From a virus, in IMG/VR virus record IMGVR_UViG_3300028909_000082, positions 1 through 20,389 of that record: a stretch of 20,389 nucleotides of DNA; one strand, given 5' to 3'. The notes under the pieces were generated by a model. That model was not told where the DNA came from. It was given only the letters and a program-made list of their open reading frames with translations, and searched no databases. Both the position numbers and the translations under genes were made by a program. This document shows, piece by piece, positions 7,535-14,049 of this stretch. Within the stretch, counting starts at the first letter, position 1. Each line of letters begins with the position of its first letter.

Positions 7535-7930
7535 TTATTCTAACTCCCGGTAGAGGGGTGTCAAGTACTCCACGATCGCCACCTTTCCTTTGATGCTCTG
7601 TTGGATCACCCCGAGCTGCTGGCGCCACACCTGCGACTGCGCAGTGCTGATGATCAGCTGCTTGCTGTAATACTTTTCCATGATGTAGTCGCGCTGGAGG
7701 CCGTCGAGGTTCGCTTGGATGATCGAGCCGATCGTATCCTTGCGGCTCATAACCTTGCCCACGATCTCTTGCGGGATCTGGTACTTATCCACAAGCGCTT
7801 GGCACGGATCGTTCAATGCGTCCTGCTCTTTCTGTGCTACAGATTTTGCAGGAGCTTGAGATACTCCGGTAGGAGTGCCGTCCAATTTTCGGACTGTGCC
7901 TTCTTTATCAACTTTGAGGAAGTCTGCCAT
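7535..7930 (-). CDS. Hypothetical helical protein, 131 aa
   Basis: The family is not recognised. The first 40 residues are polar and probably disordered. The rest is helical with charged and aromatic positions (CQALVDKYQIPQEIVGKVMSRKDTIGSIIQANLDGLQRDYIMEKYYSKQ). The ATG at 7930 has the A-rich, SD-less context AAAAATATATGG. It overlaps the glycosyltransferase gene by 94 bases. Its TAA is followed directly by the leader element at 7482-7527, so it ends the head-plus-sugar transcription unit. Head completion or virion association is possible from position only. Confidence 0.68.
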   Translation of the reverse strand: MADFLKVDKEGTVRKLDGTPTGVSQAPAKSVAQKEQDALNDPCQALVDKYQIPQEIVGKVMSRKDTIGSIIQANLDGLQRDYIMEKYYSKQLIISTAQSQVWRQQLGVIQQSIKGKVAIVEYLTPLYRELE

Positions 7931-8832
7931 ATATTTTTATTATACCATTCGTCTATTTTTTGTGCGACCTTTGCCGGATCGATATCCGCATACTCGATTC
8001 GCTTCTTGATATCCACCGATAGCTCGCGGCGGATCGGGATGAGCCACTCCGGCTCGAGGATCTTGTTTTGCGGGTCCATATCGGGCATCAATGTCGGCAT
8101 ACCTGCCGCCATTGCTTCCCTCATGGGGAGGCATTGCCCGGAATGCTTTCGAGGGATCACGAGAACGTCGCCGTCGGCATACATATCCCAGTAGTGCTTC
8201 GCTTCTCCCCTGATCTCGGCGCGTTTGTCTTTTGTCTTCAGGCCGCCCGCTTGGTCGTAGATGATGAACTTCGCCGGGCTTTTCACCAAGGGAATCACGC
8301 GGAGGAATAGTTCCGTTCCGTTCCGGTCCATATACCCGCGGTGGCCTGCGATGTGGACGAACGTCTGCGCCGTTTTGATCTCCCGCGCTTTCACGCGATC
8401 GGTATTGATGGGGAACGGTAGCACCTTTTTGGGATTCGGTACGTCAGCTTCATGCCATGGCGTCGGCAGCAGGAAGAGATCGGGGCGATTGATGCCGGTG
8501 CATACGTCGAGGTATTCGTAATTCACGCGCAGGATCGTTTTCACGCCGGCGCGGTGGCATATCGAGAAGAAGAACGGATGATAGCCAGTCTCGATTGCGA
8601 ACACCACGTCGAGTCCTTCGAGCCATGTGCGGATCTCATGCTCGCTCGGTACGCCCCTGATCACGGTCGAGCCAGGGAATCGCTCGGGGTGCTGCTTCTT
8701 GTATCCGATCATGAGCGTCATGATCTTGTCCGGCTTCACATGCTCAACGAACTCCATAGACTCGACGCCGAGTCCGGTATCATCGCACCGGGCAATGAAT
8801 CCTATTCGCTTATTGGTTTTTGCGCGTTCCAT
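7837..8832 (-). CDS. Glycosyltransferase, GT4-like GT-B fold
   Basis: I chose the ATG at 8832 (MERAKTNKRIGFIARCDDTG, 331 aa), since the fold begins right there and the upstream 19 residues lie inside the previous gene. The N-terminal domain has the IGFIARCDDTGLG entry strand. The C-terminal domain has DVLVIPRKHSGQCLPMREAMAAGMPTLMPD, the (S)G-xx-LP-xx-EAMAxGxP signature of GT4-type enzymes. It should transfer a sugar from a nucleotide-sugar donor. It closes the four-gene sugar cassette. Its last 94 bases overlap the next gene in another frame; both ends look genuine. Confidence 0.88.
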   Translation of the reverse strand: MERAKTNKRIGFIARCDDTGLGVESMEFVEHVKPDKIMTLMIGYKKQHPERFPGSTVIRGVPSEHEIRTWLEGLDVVFAIETGYHPFFFSICHRAGVKTILRVNYEYLDVCTGINRPDLFLLPTPWHEADVPNPKKVLPFPINTDRVKAREIKTAQTFVHIAGHRGYMDRNGTELFLRVIPLVKSPAKFIIYDQAGGLKTKDKRAEIRGEAKHYWDMYADGDVLVIPRKHSGQCLPMREAMAAGMPTLMPDMDPQNKILEPEWLIPIRRELSVDIKKRIEYADIDPAKVAQKIDEWYNKNIWQTSSKLIKKAQSENWTALLPEYLKLLQNL

Positions 8833-9469
8833 GGAGGTAGAAGATAACCTCATGCCATACCCCTTCGCGCAGATCGAACCACTGCGCAAGCCGGTCCCGG
8901 AATTTCATATAGTCCTCGATGTTCGTGACGAAGCCATGCACTTCCATCGAAAATGCTTTGATGTCTTTCACGCGATCGCTTTTCATGATCTCGAACTCGC
9001 TACCTTCGCAGTCCATCTTCAGGAAGTCCACCTCGTCCCAGCCTTCCATCGCCTCGTCGAGCGTGATCGCCGGGACCTTCACGGATGCGTTTGCGTCGCG
9101 GGCGAATATGGCCGAATGGGCGCCCAAATTCTCCGAACAGCTGTCATAGAGGGTAATTTCGCCATGGTTTGACCAGACGGCGTCGTTATAGGGGGTCACA
9201 GTGGCCTGGAAATCGTTCAGGGCGATGTTTTCGAGCATAGTGGCGTAGTTGTCGGGATCCGGCTCAAAAGACCTCACAGAAGCCCCTTTTGATGCCGCGA
9301 ACACCGTAAAGCTCCCGAGTTGCGCCCCGATGTCGATCACCTTGTCGCCCGGCTTGATCGTGTCGCCATAGACCTTCTGTGCGCACACCTCTTGGATGAT
9401 CGCCTCGTCGGTCGAGTTTCGAACGAGCCACTTCAGATCGAATGCGTCATGTCGATATTTTTCTTTCAT
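8810..9469 (-). CDS. FkbM-family methyltransferase (second)
   Basis: I place the start at the ATG at 9469 (MKEKYRHDAFDLKW, 219 aa), which overlaps the previous stop as ATGA; the in-frame ATG at 9511 would extend back into the previous gene. Motif I is VIDIGAQLG (residues 44-52), the acidic loop is SFEPDPDNY, and the FkbM motif is VDFLKMDCEGSEFEIM (residues 148-162). It is clearly homologous to the preceding methyltransferase but diverged, so the two may methylate different hydroxyls of the same sugar or different sugars. It overlaps the next glycosyltransferase by 23 bases. Confidence 0.92.
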   Translation of the reverse strand: MKEKYRHDAFDLKWLVRNSTDEAIIQEVCAQKVYGDTIKPGDKVIDIGAQLGSFTVFAASKGASVRSFEPDPDNYATMLENIALNDFQATVTPYNDAVWSNHGEITLYDSCSENLGAHSAIFARDANASVKVPAITLDEAMEGWDEVDFLKMDCEGSEFEIMKSDRVKDIKAFSMEVHGFVTNIEDYMKFRDRLAQWFDLREGVWHEVIFYLHGTRKNQ

Positions 9470-10089
9470 TGCTTTTTGGTTGCCCAGATGTAAGGGAGCG
9501 ACGAGTCCCACTTGTTTTGCTTCAGCTGAATATCAAAATATGGCCGCAGGATATCGAGGAATCCCTCGAGCGGCTTCACCGGGTGGAACTCCATCACGAT
9601 CTTTTGGATTTTCGCCATCGTCTCGGGTGAGGCGGCTTCGAATATCTCATGCTCTGCGCCTTCGCAGTCCATCTTGATCATATCGATGCGGTCCAGGTCC
9701 TTACAGATCTCGTCGAGGGTGATGCTTGCCACCTTGATCTTGCCGGCGCCAATATCTCCCACGATCCTATGGCCTCCGATATTCACCGGGTTGAGGTAGA
9801 GAGTGCGGCCGCCCTCATCTCCCGCTACGGCCATCTTGAATGCCGAACCGCTTGCGAATATGAAGTCATTGGCTTTGACCTGCGCCACCAGCCGGTCGTA
9901 GTTGTGCGGCTCGGGTTCGAATGCGTACACTTTCGCGCTCGCCTGGAGGGCATAGAGCGTGAAGTAGCCGATGTTTGCCCCGATATCGAGGACAATCTGG
10001 CCCGGCTCCGGCTGTTCGCCGTAGACTTTATCCACCCATATCTCGTCATAGATGCCTTGCTCTTTGTCGTCTTGGATATCGAGGATCAT
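9466..10089 (-). CDS. FkbM-family methyltransferase (first)
   Basis: The 207-aa SAM-dependent methyltransferase has motif I VLDIGANIG (residues 33-41), an acidic ribose-binding loop at AFEPEPHNYDRL and the FkbM hallmark IDMIKMDCEGAEHEIFE (D141-x-E-G). Family members typically O-methylate sugars or polyketide hydroxyls, so methylation of a glycan made by the neighbouring glycosyltransferases is likely. The ATG overlaps the upstream stop, and its stop (TGA) overlaps the next ATG, so three genes are translationally coupled. The length is slightly short but complete, with all motifs present. Confidence 0.92.
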   Translation of the reverse strand: MILDIQDDKEQGIYDEIWVDKVYGEQPEPGQIVLDIGANIGYFTLYALQASAKVYAFEPEPHNYDRLVAQVKANDFIFASGSAFKMAVAGDEGGRTLYLNPVNIGGHRIVGDIGAGKIKVASITLDEICKDLDRIDMIKMDCEGAEHEIFEAASPETMAKIQKIVMEFHPVKPLEGFLDILRPYFDIQLKQNKWDSSLPYIWATKKQ

Positions 10090-11099
10090 GTTTTGTATGG
10101 ATCAATTTTTTTGCCCGCGATGACCTTGAGGATCTGCTCTGCCCGGTTCACGAAGGTCTTGTGCTTCGAGACGTACTCCATGCCTGCCGCGCGGATCCGT
10201 TCTCGCTCCGTCGGGTGCGCGAGATAGTAATCGATCTTGCGCTTCAGCCCTTCGAAGTCTCCGTAATCGTATGGCACGAGATGCTTGCCATATTCGAACT
10301 CTTTCTCGAGTCCTACCACTTTCGGATGGATGGCGAACCCGCCGCGCCCGATCGTTTCGTACACCCGGTTGCTCCAGTACTCGCGGCTGTTCAGGCTGTC
10401 GCAGACCACCACCTTTGCCGATGCGTAGACGTCATTCAGGTCTTTTCCGAACACCATGATCTTGTGGCCCGGATCCTCGTTGCCAATCACGTCGCCGAAC
10501 AGTTTGAAGCGGTCGCCATAGGTCTTCTTGAGGAAGTCCACCAGCTTGCGCCGGTACGGCCATTCCTTCAGGTAGTGATAGGTTCCGACAAACGCCACAT
10601 CACATGCGTATTCCTCTTTGGCGGTACCCATTCCACATTCAGCCCCGTATACCGCTGCAGGAAGATAGTGATGCCTGATCCCACGAGCTTCGAAGATATC
10701 ATCGTGGCCTCCGTCGACAGTAAATACGTAGTCTGCCCGCCAAAATGGATTATTTGCCATTCCCATGGCACGGTTAAGCCCGAGATAGAGGTCAAGAGTG
10801 TAAGAAACTGATCGGATGCCCAGCTTGGTAAAGTCGAACGGCATGCCGAATGTTCGCTGGTAGAAGACCGTATCGCATCCGACAGCAGCATCTCTTATCG
10901 CTTTTTCGCTACAGTTTTTTTCGCTGATCCTGACGACTTCGATGCCGAGTTCTTCGAGGCTTTTCGAGAGGTGGGTTTCGGTGAGGTAGTCGGCGAAGAA
11001 GTTGCCGATGTAGAGGACCTTTCGGACTCGGGGAGATGCTCCATCAGATGTTCCGTCAGCGATTCCGGGCTTTCCGCCACGTGGCCGCATGTTAGGCAT
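10086..11099 (-). CDS. Glycosyltransferase, CgeB-like (Glyco_trans_1_2 type)
   Basis: The 337-aa GT-B-like enzyme has an N-terminal Rossmann strand at VRKVLYIGNFF (residues 25-35) and a C-terminal nucleotide-sugar domain with NRVYETIGRGGFAIHPKVVGLE (residues 244-265). It ends with the YYLAHPTERERIRAAGMEYVSKHKTF pattern seen in CgeB/DUF3880-type glycosyltransferases. It should transfer a sugar from a nucleotide donor; donor and acceptor cannot be told. The first about 24 residues look unrelated to the family and overlap the zinc-finger coding sequence. Only the ATGs at 11099 and 11090 can start it, since no later start codon precedes the fold. The stop overlaps the next methyltransferase by 4 bases. 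It is the first gene of a four-gene sugar cassette. Confidence 0.88.
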   Translation of the reverse strand: MPNMRPRGGKPGIADGTSDGASPRVRKVLYIGNFFADYLTETHLSKSLEELGIEVVRISEKNCSEKAIRDAAVGCDTVFYQRTFGMPFDFTKLGIRSVSYTLDLYLGLNRAMGMANNPFWRADYVFTVDGGHDDIFEARGIRHHYLPAAVYGAECGMGTAKEEYACDVAFVGTYHYLKEWPYRRKLVDFLKKTYGDRFKLFGDVIGNEDPGHKIMVFGKDLNDVYASAKVVVCDSLNSREYWSNRVYETIGRGGFAIHPKVVGLEKEFEYGKHLVPYDYGDFEGLKRKIDYYLAHPTERERIRAAGMEYVSKHKTFVNRAEQILKVIAGKKIDPYKT

Positions 11100-11960: not shown

Positions 11961-12383
11961 CTAGTCGACGGAGAGTTTCGAGCGGATGCCGCCGTTGCGC
12001 ATCTCCTCGATCAGCTCCGGATCGCCCATGTACACTTTCGTGTTGCGGGGCGGCCGTTCAAAGTGACCTTTTGCTGCCGTGTATTCGGCTCGCTGGGCAT
12101 CGTTATTGGCCTTATTGAACACCAAGTTTGCCTTTTCGATGTCGCGCTCGAGCTTCGCCGGGATCGTCTGTTTGGCGTTGATGAGCTGGGTCCGCTGCGC
12201 CATCAATACGGCGAGCGCATTGCGCGGCACCTTCGTCATCTCCCGATAGATCTGCCCATTGGATACTCCCATGAGCTTCCAGCGAGGTTCGTATTGCGCA
12301 TAGGGCTGCCATGCGTCTTTTTCCGTGAACTGGACGATGTTGCCGTCCGGCTTTCGGAACCAATATAGCTTTTGGAATTTCAT
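11961..12383 (-). CDS. Hypothetical protein after capsid gene, 140 aa
   Basis: I chose the ATG at 12383 (MKFQKLYWFRKPDGN) over an upstream in-frame ATG at 12509. The upstream 42 residues have a non-protein-like composition and run through the structured gap, and the chosen start has the context CTTAAAACAATG, nearly identical to the start at 1178. The protein has a beta-like N-terminus, a long charged helical middle (LAVLMAQRTQLINAKQTIPAKLERDIEKANLVFNKANNDAQRAEYTAAKGHF) and a C-terminal VYMGDPELIEEMRN element. I do not recognise a family. The position suggests a head-completion or capsid-associated role. Confidence 0.68.
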   Translation of the reverse strand: MKFQKLYWFRKPDGNIVQFTEKDAWQPYAQYEPRWKLMGVSNGQIYREMTKVPRNALAVLMAQRTQLINAKQTIPAKLERDIEKANLVFNKANNDAQRAEYTAAKGHFERPPRNTKVYMGDPELIEEMRNGGIRSKLSVD

Positions 12384-12398
12384 TGTTTTAAGTGTACC

Positions 12399-12413
12399 AT
12401 GGCTAGTTTTTCC
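12399..12413 (+). repeat. Inverted repeat arm 2: downstream of capsid gene
   Basis: ATGGCTAGTTTTTCC on the plus strand lies between the capsid stop and the next start (12383). In the minus-strand transcript this reads GGAAAAACTAGCCAT, exactly complementary to the capsid start region about 1 kb upstream. Confidence 0.9.
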
Positions 12414-12424
12414 TGTGCATGCGA

Positions 12425-12488
12425 GGCGAGAGAGTTTGTGTGCGCAACTCTCGCCCCACCACCACAAACTGCTGTGGCAGGGCGCACA
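12425..12488 (-). ncRNA. Foldable untranslated segment after capsid gene, possible pseudoknot
   Basis: The 125-base gap 12384-12508 holds nested structure. GGCGAGAGTT (12455-12446) pairs with AACTCTCTCGCC (12436-12425), with a 2-base bulge, around the loop GCGCACACA. Part of that loop, GCGCACA (12445-12439), is complementary to the upstream TGTGCGC (12488-12482), which would make a pseudoknot. Between them CCACA/TGTGG (12477-12462) can form a small hairpin. No T tract follows, so it is not a normal intrinsic terminator. It may protect or cut the mRNA or control translation of the capsid gene or the next gene. The folding was judged by eye. Confidence 0.45.
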
Positions 12489-12508
12489 AGAGATAGGGTC
12501 ACGACTCA

Positions 12509-13447
12509 CTAGGAGACCGTGGCGGTATCGGAAACTGTAATGACCACACCGAACGGATCGCGGACGACGATCGTACCGAAGATGATGTCAGTCACGATCA
12601 AGAGGCCGAGGTTCTCAAGGAGATACTCGCTCTGAACGCGGACTTTCGAACCACCTGGGGTCTGAATGCCGAAGCCGAATGCGTTTTTGTGGGCCAACAG
12701 GTTACGGTAGCCTCCCAAGTTATCCACGACGTTCGTCGAGACATAGATCGGGATGTTATAGATCTCGCCGCGGAGGCCGTTCGAATGGGGTTTGCCATTG
12801 ATCGTGCCTGATTCCACAACGGAGCTATTGTCCCGGCTATTCAACGAATAGGCCTGGTAATACTTGGTGATCGCCGCCGCCTGGTTCCAAAACACGTTCG
12901 GATGGAGGAAGAACGCGAGGTTCCCGAACTCCGTGTCGTCGAGGTTTTGGGCTTCGATGTTGGCGATCGCCTGGCGGGCTTCCTGATCCGTGAAGGCTGC
13001 GGCGCTGTTCGTGATCAAGTTCGTCGAGAGCGAGGACCAGAGGCCAAAGAGGGAGACCTCGAGGGCGTTCATAGTCGTCTTTCTCATCTGATTCGCGTAC
13101 TCTACGTTGAAATTGAAGCTCTTTTGGAGCTGGGCAATATCCTTGTCGCCTGCGAGGGCGGCAACGTAGTTGTGCGTGTTGATCGCGAGCTGCACCTTCA
13201 CCTGTGCCGGATCCGCGAGTGTGACCTGGGCGCCCTGCGTCGACTGCGTCTGCACCGAGAACGTGTTGGTGTAGAGGTTCGCAATGTCGAACGTCGAGCC
13301 GCCTTCAGTCGCGTACTCGCTCAAATCGAGGAAGAAGTTGGATGCGACGGTCGACGCGAACATCTGTTCGAGTACGATCGGGGTCCAAATTTCCGGGATG
13401 GAAGCTGCGAGGTTGGCTGCTGTAAACTGACTGGAAAAACTAGCCAT
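12509..13447 (-). CDS. Major capsid protein (HK97-like fold, probable)
   Basis: The 312-aa protein follows scaffold. It has the typical capsid opening (ANLAASIPEIWTPIVLEQMFASTVASNFF), a glycine-rich E-loop-like stretch, a spine-helix region (NVEYANQMRKTTMNALEVSLFGLWSS), the peripheral-domain pattern FFLHPNVFWNQ and a C-terminal strand set (GLLIVTDIIFGTIVVRDPFGVVI). This matches coat proteins annotated in many uncultured tailed phages. It forms the icosahedral shell. The ATG at 13447 has no SD (AACTTAAAATG). The first 15 bases of the gene reappear inverted 96 bases past its stop (12399-12413), so the start region could pair with the mRNA's own 3' part. A GroES-like gene lies two genes downstream. 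Confidence 0.92.
   Translation of the reverse strand: MASFSSQFTAANLAASIPEIWTPIVLEQMFASTVASNFFLDLSEYATEGGSTFDIANLYTNTFSVQTQSTQGAQVTLADPAQVKVQLAINTHNYVAALAGDKDIAQLQKSFNFNVEYANQMRKTTMNALEVSLFGLWSSLSTNLITNSAAAFTDQEARQAIANIEAQNLDDTEFGNLAFFLHPNVFWNQAAAITKYYQAYSLNSRDNSSVVESGTINGKPHSNGLRGEIYNIPIYVSTNVVDNLGGYRNLLAHKNAFGFGIQTPGGSKVRVQSEYLLENLGLLIVTDIIFGTIVVRDPFGVVITVSDTATVS
13433..13447 (-). repeat. Inverted repeat arm 1: start of capsid gene
   Basis: ATGGCTAGTTTTTCC on the minus strand comprises the first five codons of the capsid gene. It is a perfect 15-base match, in opposite orientation, to 12399-12413. Confidence 0.9.
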
Positions 13448-13467: not shown

Positions 13468-14049
13468 TTATTCTTCGCTACCCCCTTGTTTTCCCTGAAC
13501 ACGCTTCTCGAAGACAGATCGAGCATTATCGATGACCGCTTTCTGCCGATCGGCAGGGGTCTTCGCATCGCTGTAGCCCGGAATCTCGTCGTTAGACAAG
13601 ATCGAACCAACGCGACTGCTCGGGGGGGGTGTACCGTCCCGACCGCGGGTCTGCTTTCTTTGCGCCTCGATGCCGGCTTTGAGGATGGGGTTAGCCATCA
13701 GCGCTGCGGGCGTCAGTTTCATCTCCTTCGCCAGTTTGGCGATATTGATGATCTCTGCGTTGGAATAGCCGTCACCTTGCAGGGTGATCAGCTCCATCGT
13801 AGTGATTGGCGCTTCCTCCGAGTTGGATGCCGGAGGCGTGACTTTGTGGTCACCATTCTGCGGAACCTGCTCGTTACCCTTATCGTCCTTCGGTTTTTCT
13901 TCCGTCTTTTTGAGACGTGCGAAAATTTGCGTATTCAGCTTTTTCACCGTTTCCAAGTCGGTGGCCTCGTTATTTTGTTTGATGAGATCTTCGAGGCTTG
14001 GCTCACTGCCATTGTTACCGTTGGCATTCGGGGTTTTTTCGTTCTCCAT
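13468..14049 (-). CDS. Scaffolding protein (probable)
   Basis: The 193-aa protein lies immediately upstream of the capsid gene, the usual place for phage scaffold. It is hydrophilic. It has an Asn/Glu-rich N-terminus (MENEKTPNANGNNGSEPS), a charged predicted helical segment (LEDLIKQNNEATDLETVKKLNTQIFARLKKTEE), a disordered linker, a second helical part (NAEIINIAKLAKEMKLTPAALMANPILKAGIEAQRKQ) and a C-terminal charged helix. It has no cysteine. Scaffolds direct procapsid assembly and are later removed. The assignment comes from context and composition. A run of eight C (minus strand) encodes the TPPPS linker. The start follows a TAA by one base, with no SD. Confidence 0.75.
   Translation of the reverse strand: MENEKTPNANGNNGSEPSLEDLIKQNNEATDLETVKKLNTQIFARLKKTEEKPKDDKGNEQVPQNGDHKVTPPASNSEEAPITTMELITLQGDGYSNAEIINIAKLAKEMKLTPAALMANPILKAGIEAQRKQTRGRDGTPPPSSRVGSILSNDEIPGYSDAKTPADRQKAVIDNARSVFEKRVQGKQGGSEE

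Follow-up and report, generated by a model that had tools for sequence, protein, structure and literature searches.

A 3′ complement of the capsid start codon and a candidate pseudoknot RNA family behind the capsid gene of uncultured phages

The hok mRNA contains a 3′ fold-back inhibitory element that folds onto the 5′ part, and the finished mRNA is silent. In the RNA phage MS2, the long-distance (Min Jou) pairing closes the replicase start, which is opened by ribosomes that translate the upstream gene. The structured RNA Mu-gpT-DE follows a phage gene for a major head protein. It corresponds to RF03012 (PMC7657543). The icaR mRNA of Staphylococcus aureus undergoes 3′UTR-5′UTR pairing at its translation start region, for which hok is given as a parallel (PMC3868564). 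OppZ and CarZ are 3′UTR-derived RNAs that pair with their own mRNA and inhibit translation (PMC7398697). Very few cases are known in which direct 3′-to-5′ pairing controls a bacterial-type mRNA, and the literature searched held no report of such pairing on the capsid gene of a DNA phage.

We analyzed a 20,389-nt stretch of viral DNA, IMG/VR record IMGVR_UViG_3300028909_000082, hereafter the window. The major capsid protein gene (12509–13447, minus strand; 312 aa; stop codon at 12509–12511) matches PHROG 267, major head protein, with an E value of 7e-9. Its first 15 nt, comprising the AUG and codons 2–5 (ATGGCTAGTTTTTCC; 13433–13447, minus strand), are designated arm 1. Arm 2 (GGAAAAACTAGCCAT in mRNA sense; 12399–12413, minus strand) is the exact complement of arm 1; it begins 95 nt beyond the capsid stop, with 15 nt left between it and the next ATG. 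Judging from the sequence, both arms are on the same strand and in the same gene run. The ATG shortly 3′ of arm 2 belongs to a gene of unassigned function (11961–12383, minus strand; 140 aa). Upstream of the capsid gene, the ORF list contains a gene in the scaffold-gene position (13468–14049, minus strand), whose putative role is suggested by position alone and which has no Pfam or PHROG matches.

The initial annotation had noted exact 15-bp inverted copies at 12399–12413 (plus strand) and 13433–13447 (minus strand), and these are indeed present, one of each in the record. The match extends to 17 of 18 positions, and the record holds no further copies of the 15-mer with up to two mismatches (0.01 expected from shuffles). 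An exact 15-bp inverted pair anywhere in 20 kb is mildly unusual (about 0.2 by our own estimate). Its placement at the start codon and in the trailing gap of the same gene had been judged hard to attribute to chance, and it does exceed chance expectation, because a 15-nt run was reached in 0/3000 dinucleotide shuffles of the 125-nt gap of the window. The capsid is 100% identical in five further IMG/VR contigs (L001–L004 and L007), all of which have both arms and an identical gap. Energy ranking with RNAduplex failed to single out the arms; GC-rich stretches dominate this ranking, and therefore exact-run and global-fold tests were used.

Searches for the near clade comprised four capsid alignments against IMG/VR, one GTDB scan and 297 genomes of the phylum of L031, and these collections yielded only three independent lineages. 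The second lineage (L005 and L006, from IMG/VR) has capsids 87 and 86% identical to that of the window, and the third (L031), a contig putatively binned as Bryobacteraceae, has a capsid 91% identical. The nucleotide identity of the capsid gene between lineages is 74–81%, four-fold sites are 44–56% identical (51–56% for the two sister lineages), and the terminases of the window and L005 are only 58% identical. Homologs of the next gene (11961–12383) are present in L005 and L031, with an extra small ORF lying between in L031. The upstream stop is separated from the capsid ATG by 20 nt in the window, 8 nt in L005 and 20 nt in L031, and the distance from the end of arm 2 to the next ATG is 11–23 nt across the three lineages.

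Both sister lineages retain the pairing. The arms of L005 (ATGGCCAGTTTCACT at the capsid start and ATGGAAACTGGCCTTTG in the gap) share a 10-bp core, or 15 bp with one bulge; the 10-bp match has a p value of 0.002 in gap shuffles, and 3 of the 15 positions are unpaired. The arms of L031 (ATTTCATATGGCCAGTTTTTCC versus GGAAAAACTGGTTGTGTGGGAT) form 22 contiguous pairs including G-U, a run that was reached in 0/3000 shuffles. When the 15 columns of the arms were aligned for the three lineages, 93% of cells paired, compared with 36–55% when the partner was slid. Two-sided compensation is found in 3 of the 15 pairs (capsid positions 6, 12 and 15), and 21 of 500 trials with shuffled letters reached equal covariation counts, three rows having low power. 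The changes in arm 2 of L031 produce G-U pairs in the sense of the capsid mRNA and C-A mismatches on the opposite strand, so that the signal of the arms is sense-strand RNA pairing, neither a DNA repeat nor an opposite-strand RNA. Furthermore, arm 2 is kept in L031 although the next gene there is a different small ORF; therefore, arm 2 goes with the capsid gap and not with the downstream gene. Loss or free variation of the second arm in close relatives had been named by the initial annotation as grounds for rejecting a function; relatives at 87–91% capsid identity co-vary this arm and show no free variation, and only those at 47% or less are without it.

The partition-function folds of the entire capsid mRNA (approximately 1190 nt, or 1.2 kb) were calculated for each lineage. 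The helix probability in the global fold was about 0.87–1.0 for the window, 0.86 for L005 (core) and 0.94 for L031. The expected number of start-to-gap pairs was 15.5, 14.2 and 20.1, respectively, whereas 48 controls (capsids of distant relatives and other window genes) had a mean of 1.4 and a maximum of 11.8. The maxima with shuffled gaps, in 25 trials each, were 5.0 for the window, 16.6 for L005 and 11.7 for L031. The global folding of L005 is marginal on its own, with 1 of 25 shuffled gaps above its level. The helix between arms 1 and 2 is thus the predicted equilibrium fold. Taken together, the comparative and computational data show that the capsid start pairs with its own 3′ gap on the sense strand, and that compensatory and wobble changes preserve this pairing across three diverged lineages.

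Among about 25 gene starts examined in the window, none is preceded by a Shine-Dalgarno sequence of at least 5 nt and one by a sequence of 4 nt, and A-rich stretches precede the starts. The near absence of Shine-Dalgarno sequences together with the A-rich stretches suggests a host that initiates without them. Initiation without a Shine-Dalgarno sequence depends strongly on an open start. Since no strong Shine-Dalgarno is found in the window, start accessibility should matter, and the openness of the start should strongly govern initiation on its genes. Covering the AUG of such a capsid start would give direct control over the output of shell protein.

With moderate confidence, we propose that a 3′ fold-back arm in the trailing gap pairs with the capsid AUG and codons 2–5 and thereby controls capsid output. 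Folding back over about 1 kb, the gap arm would base-pair with the start codon and codons 2–5; this helix would hide the AUG and lower new initiation on a finished or read-through transcript (cf. icaR, PMC3868564). The first rounds of translation precede the synthesis of arm 2, and the lock would therefore act only later. Ribosomes ending on the upstream gene 8–20 nt before the AUG may, speculatively, open the helix, and this opening might couple capsid synthesis to the upstream gene. It is equally speculative that transcripts whose 3′ end forms, by termination or cleavage, at the structured element preceding arm 2 would lack the arm and be translated freely. The initial annotation had suggested that long-range pairing could close the capsid ribosome-binding region. 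The pairing is well supported by the compensatory changes, the sense-strand G-U pairs and the high helix probability, and what it closes is the start, since the arm covers the AUG and codons 2–5; there is no Shine-Dalgarno sequence there for the term ribosome-binding region to describe.

As in fold-back of the icaR/hok type, the 3′ region of the capsid transcript is complementary to its own start region, and the changes in L005 and L031, two-sided or to wobble pairs, indicate that the pairing is kept by selection, within three lineages only. In both icaR and the capsid mRNA, a 3′ segment pairs with its own start region across the coding sequence. While the UCCCCUG motif of icaR covers the Shine-Dalgarno sequence, the phage arm covers the AUG and first codons of a gene lacking one, and its function is inferred. 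The capsid arm also resembles hok in having a 3′ element that folds back on the 5′ part, but no toxin-antitoxin system or antisense RNA was seen, and the start codon itself is the pairing partner of arm 2. The likeness to MS2 consists in long-range pairing that closes a start and would be opened from the upstream gene; unlike in MS2, the mRNA is that of a DNA phage, the partner comes after the closed gene, and the coupling is putative. The proposed capsid clasp would add a variant to known 3′ fold-back control.

The gap also contains a structured RNA immediately 5′ of arm 2. We examined the 127 nt after the capsid stop in 95 distinct relatives, by eye and then by program. An H-type pseudoknot was present at p ≤ 0.01 in 79 of the 95, and a three-helix pseudoknot scoring at least 45 was detected in 76 of 95 relatives versus 0 of 475 shuffles. 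The three-helix form consists of a closing helix P1, a hairpin P2, and P3, which joins the P2 loop to the P2-P1 joint. P1 is often AATTGTT...AACAATT immediately before the next ATG, and it often includes the A-rich stretch right before the ATG of the next gene. The relatives with pseudoknots include L018–L033 and L079–L158, and their stem sequences are very variable.

A variant occurs in the window, L005 and L031: P3 joins the loops of two hairpins, P2 and P4, and arm 2 follows. In the window, this kissing-hairpin variant spans 12427–12482 on the minus strand (p = 0/100 shuffles), with nearly the same spacing in L031. All its strands are on the minus strand: P2 is formed by CCCTGCCAC (12474–12482) and GTGGTGGGG (12454–12462), and P4 by CGAGAG (12448–12453) and CTCTCG (12427–12432). 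The 5′ strand of P3, in the P2 loop, is AGTTTGTG (12463–12470; ATTTTGAG in L031 and ATTTAAG in L005), and its 3′ strand, in the P4 loop, is CACAAACT (12433–12440; CTCAAAAT in L031 and CTTAAAT in L005).

Mu-gpT-DE and the capsid gap both represent structured RNA 3′ of a phage major head protein gene. In contrast to Mu-gpT-DE, no match to the Rfam 15 covariance models up to an E value of 5 was obtained in the window, and the loci of ten relatives gave only two unrelated chance-level matches, which are below the curated cut-off and located elsewhere in the loci. A limited literature search found no description of a capsid-gap pseudoknot, and the pseudoknots behind these phage capsid genes look like an undescribed RNA family. 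Our broader proposal is tentative: a wide group of uncultured phages possibly has an undescribed three-helix pseudoknot control element behind the capsid gene, the closing helix of which takes in the A-rich stretch before the next start in most members, and in the present clade this element may have been rebuilt as kissing hairpins plus an arm clasping the capsid start codon, setting the structural-protein ratio at the RNA level. The family-wide pseudoknot provides a large natural alignment for testing control of structural-protein ratios by RNA structure.

The kissing hairpins bear on an alternative in which a stable RNA, cut from the capsid 3′ gap and protected by this structure, pairs in trans with the capsid start as negative feedback. 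The complementarity of the arms is equally usable in trans, in each of the three lineages the compact element lies immediately 5′ of arm 2, and OppZ and CarZ set a precedent (PMC7398697). OppZ and CarZ resemble the capsid case in that an mRNA is paired by sequence from its own 3′ end, but they are processed, separate RNAs, whereas the capsid arm is known here from sequence. Arm 2 falls on the 3′ flank of the structure, which would leave such an RNA without a defined 3′ terminus, and we consider this reading unlikely. The antisense RNA suggested by the initial annotation survives solely in this same-strand form, because an opposite-strand RNA would have the same sequence as the capsid start and not its complement.

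It is also doubtful, and in our judgment improbable, that the pairing acts on stability, as an RNase III-type cleavage site, or on the start of the next gene in place of capsid repression. A helix of 15–22 bp is within the size that RNase III can cut, the 3′-5′ pairing of icaR is cut by RNase III (PMC3868564), and the next ATG follows closely after arm 2 in each of the three lineages. On the other hand, its partner is always on the capsid AUG itself, which favors a role in initiation, and the next gene in L031 is unrelated.

A functionless chance match retained through common descent is very unlikely. It could draw on the small number of lineages, only three, and on the marginal global folding of L005 on its own, but divergence has reached about half of the four-fold sites and the remainder of the gap while the pairing persists with two-sided and wobble changes, and the shuffle tests in each lineage argue against it. 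A DNA-level feature, either the recombination arms inverting the capsid gene that the initial annotation had suggested or a protein-binding site in two orientations, could appeal to the exact inverted repeat in the window but is extremely improbable, since this repeat shrinks to at most 10–11 bp in the sisters, where the pairing needs G-U pairs, one orientation is shared by all near-clade contigs with no inverted capsid seen, and the conserved flanking repeats and both orientations of a DNA inversion switch were not found. An inverted coding copy was also considered for the plus-strand ORF from 12399 (MASFS...) and rejected, as the counterpart ATG is absent in L005 and L031.

The proposed fold-back arm is limited to the near clade. 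In the other 74 distinct capsid loci tested, the longest complementary runs are 4–10 nt, and no strong helix is seen in L165 (45% capsid identity), the nearest outgroup whose start is readable. A tblastn search with the window capsid gave zero matches in cultured phages. The cultured phage Pf-WMP3 was reached through a distant match to the L024 capsid; its gap has a complementarity of only 5 nt and no arm, and by eye it contains an ordinary terminator hairpin and no pseudoknot of this kind.

Several minor observations were made at these loci. In L031, a strong nested hairpin (GATTGTTCGCTG...CAGCGAGCAATC) at 1195–1260 precedes the gene upstream of the capsid gene. On the plus strand of the window, 12497–12520 over the capsid stop, CACGACTCACTAGGAGACC looks like a T7 promoter core shortened by a small deletion; it is absent from L005 and L031 and is probably due to chance. 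Terminase relatives carry other capsids, and in L053–L062 and L064 the large terminase matches that of the window only over approximately residues 1–234, as if the gene were split or interrupted by a frame change, an intein or an intron, and the break falls at a similar position in many contigs. The tail genes and the capsid region of the window are separated by a block (7837–11099) of glycosyltransferase-like and FkbM-type methyltransferase-like genes, as judged by eye from the translations; this block is kept in L005.
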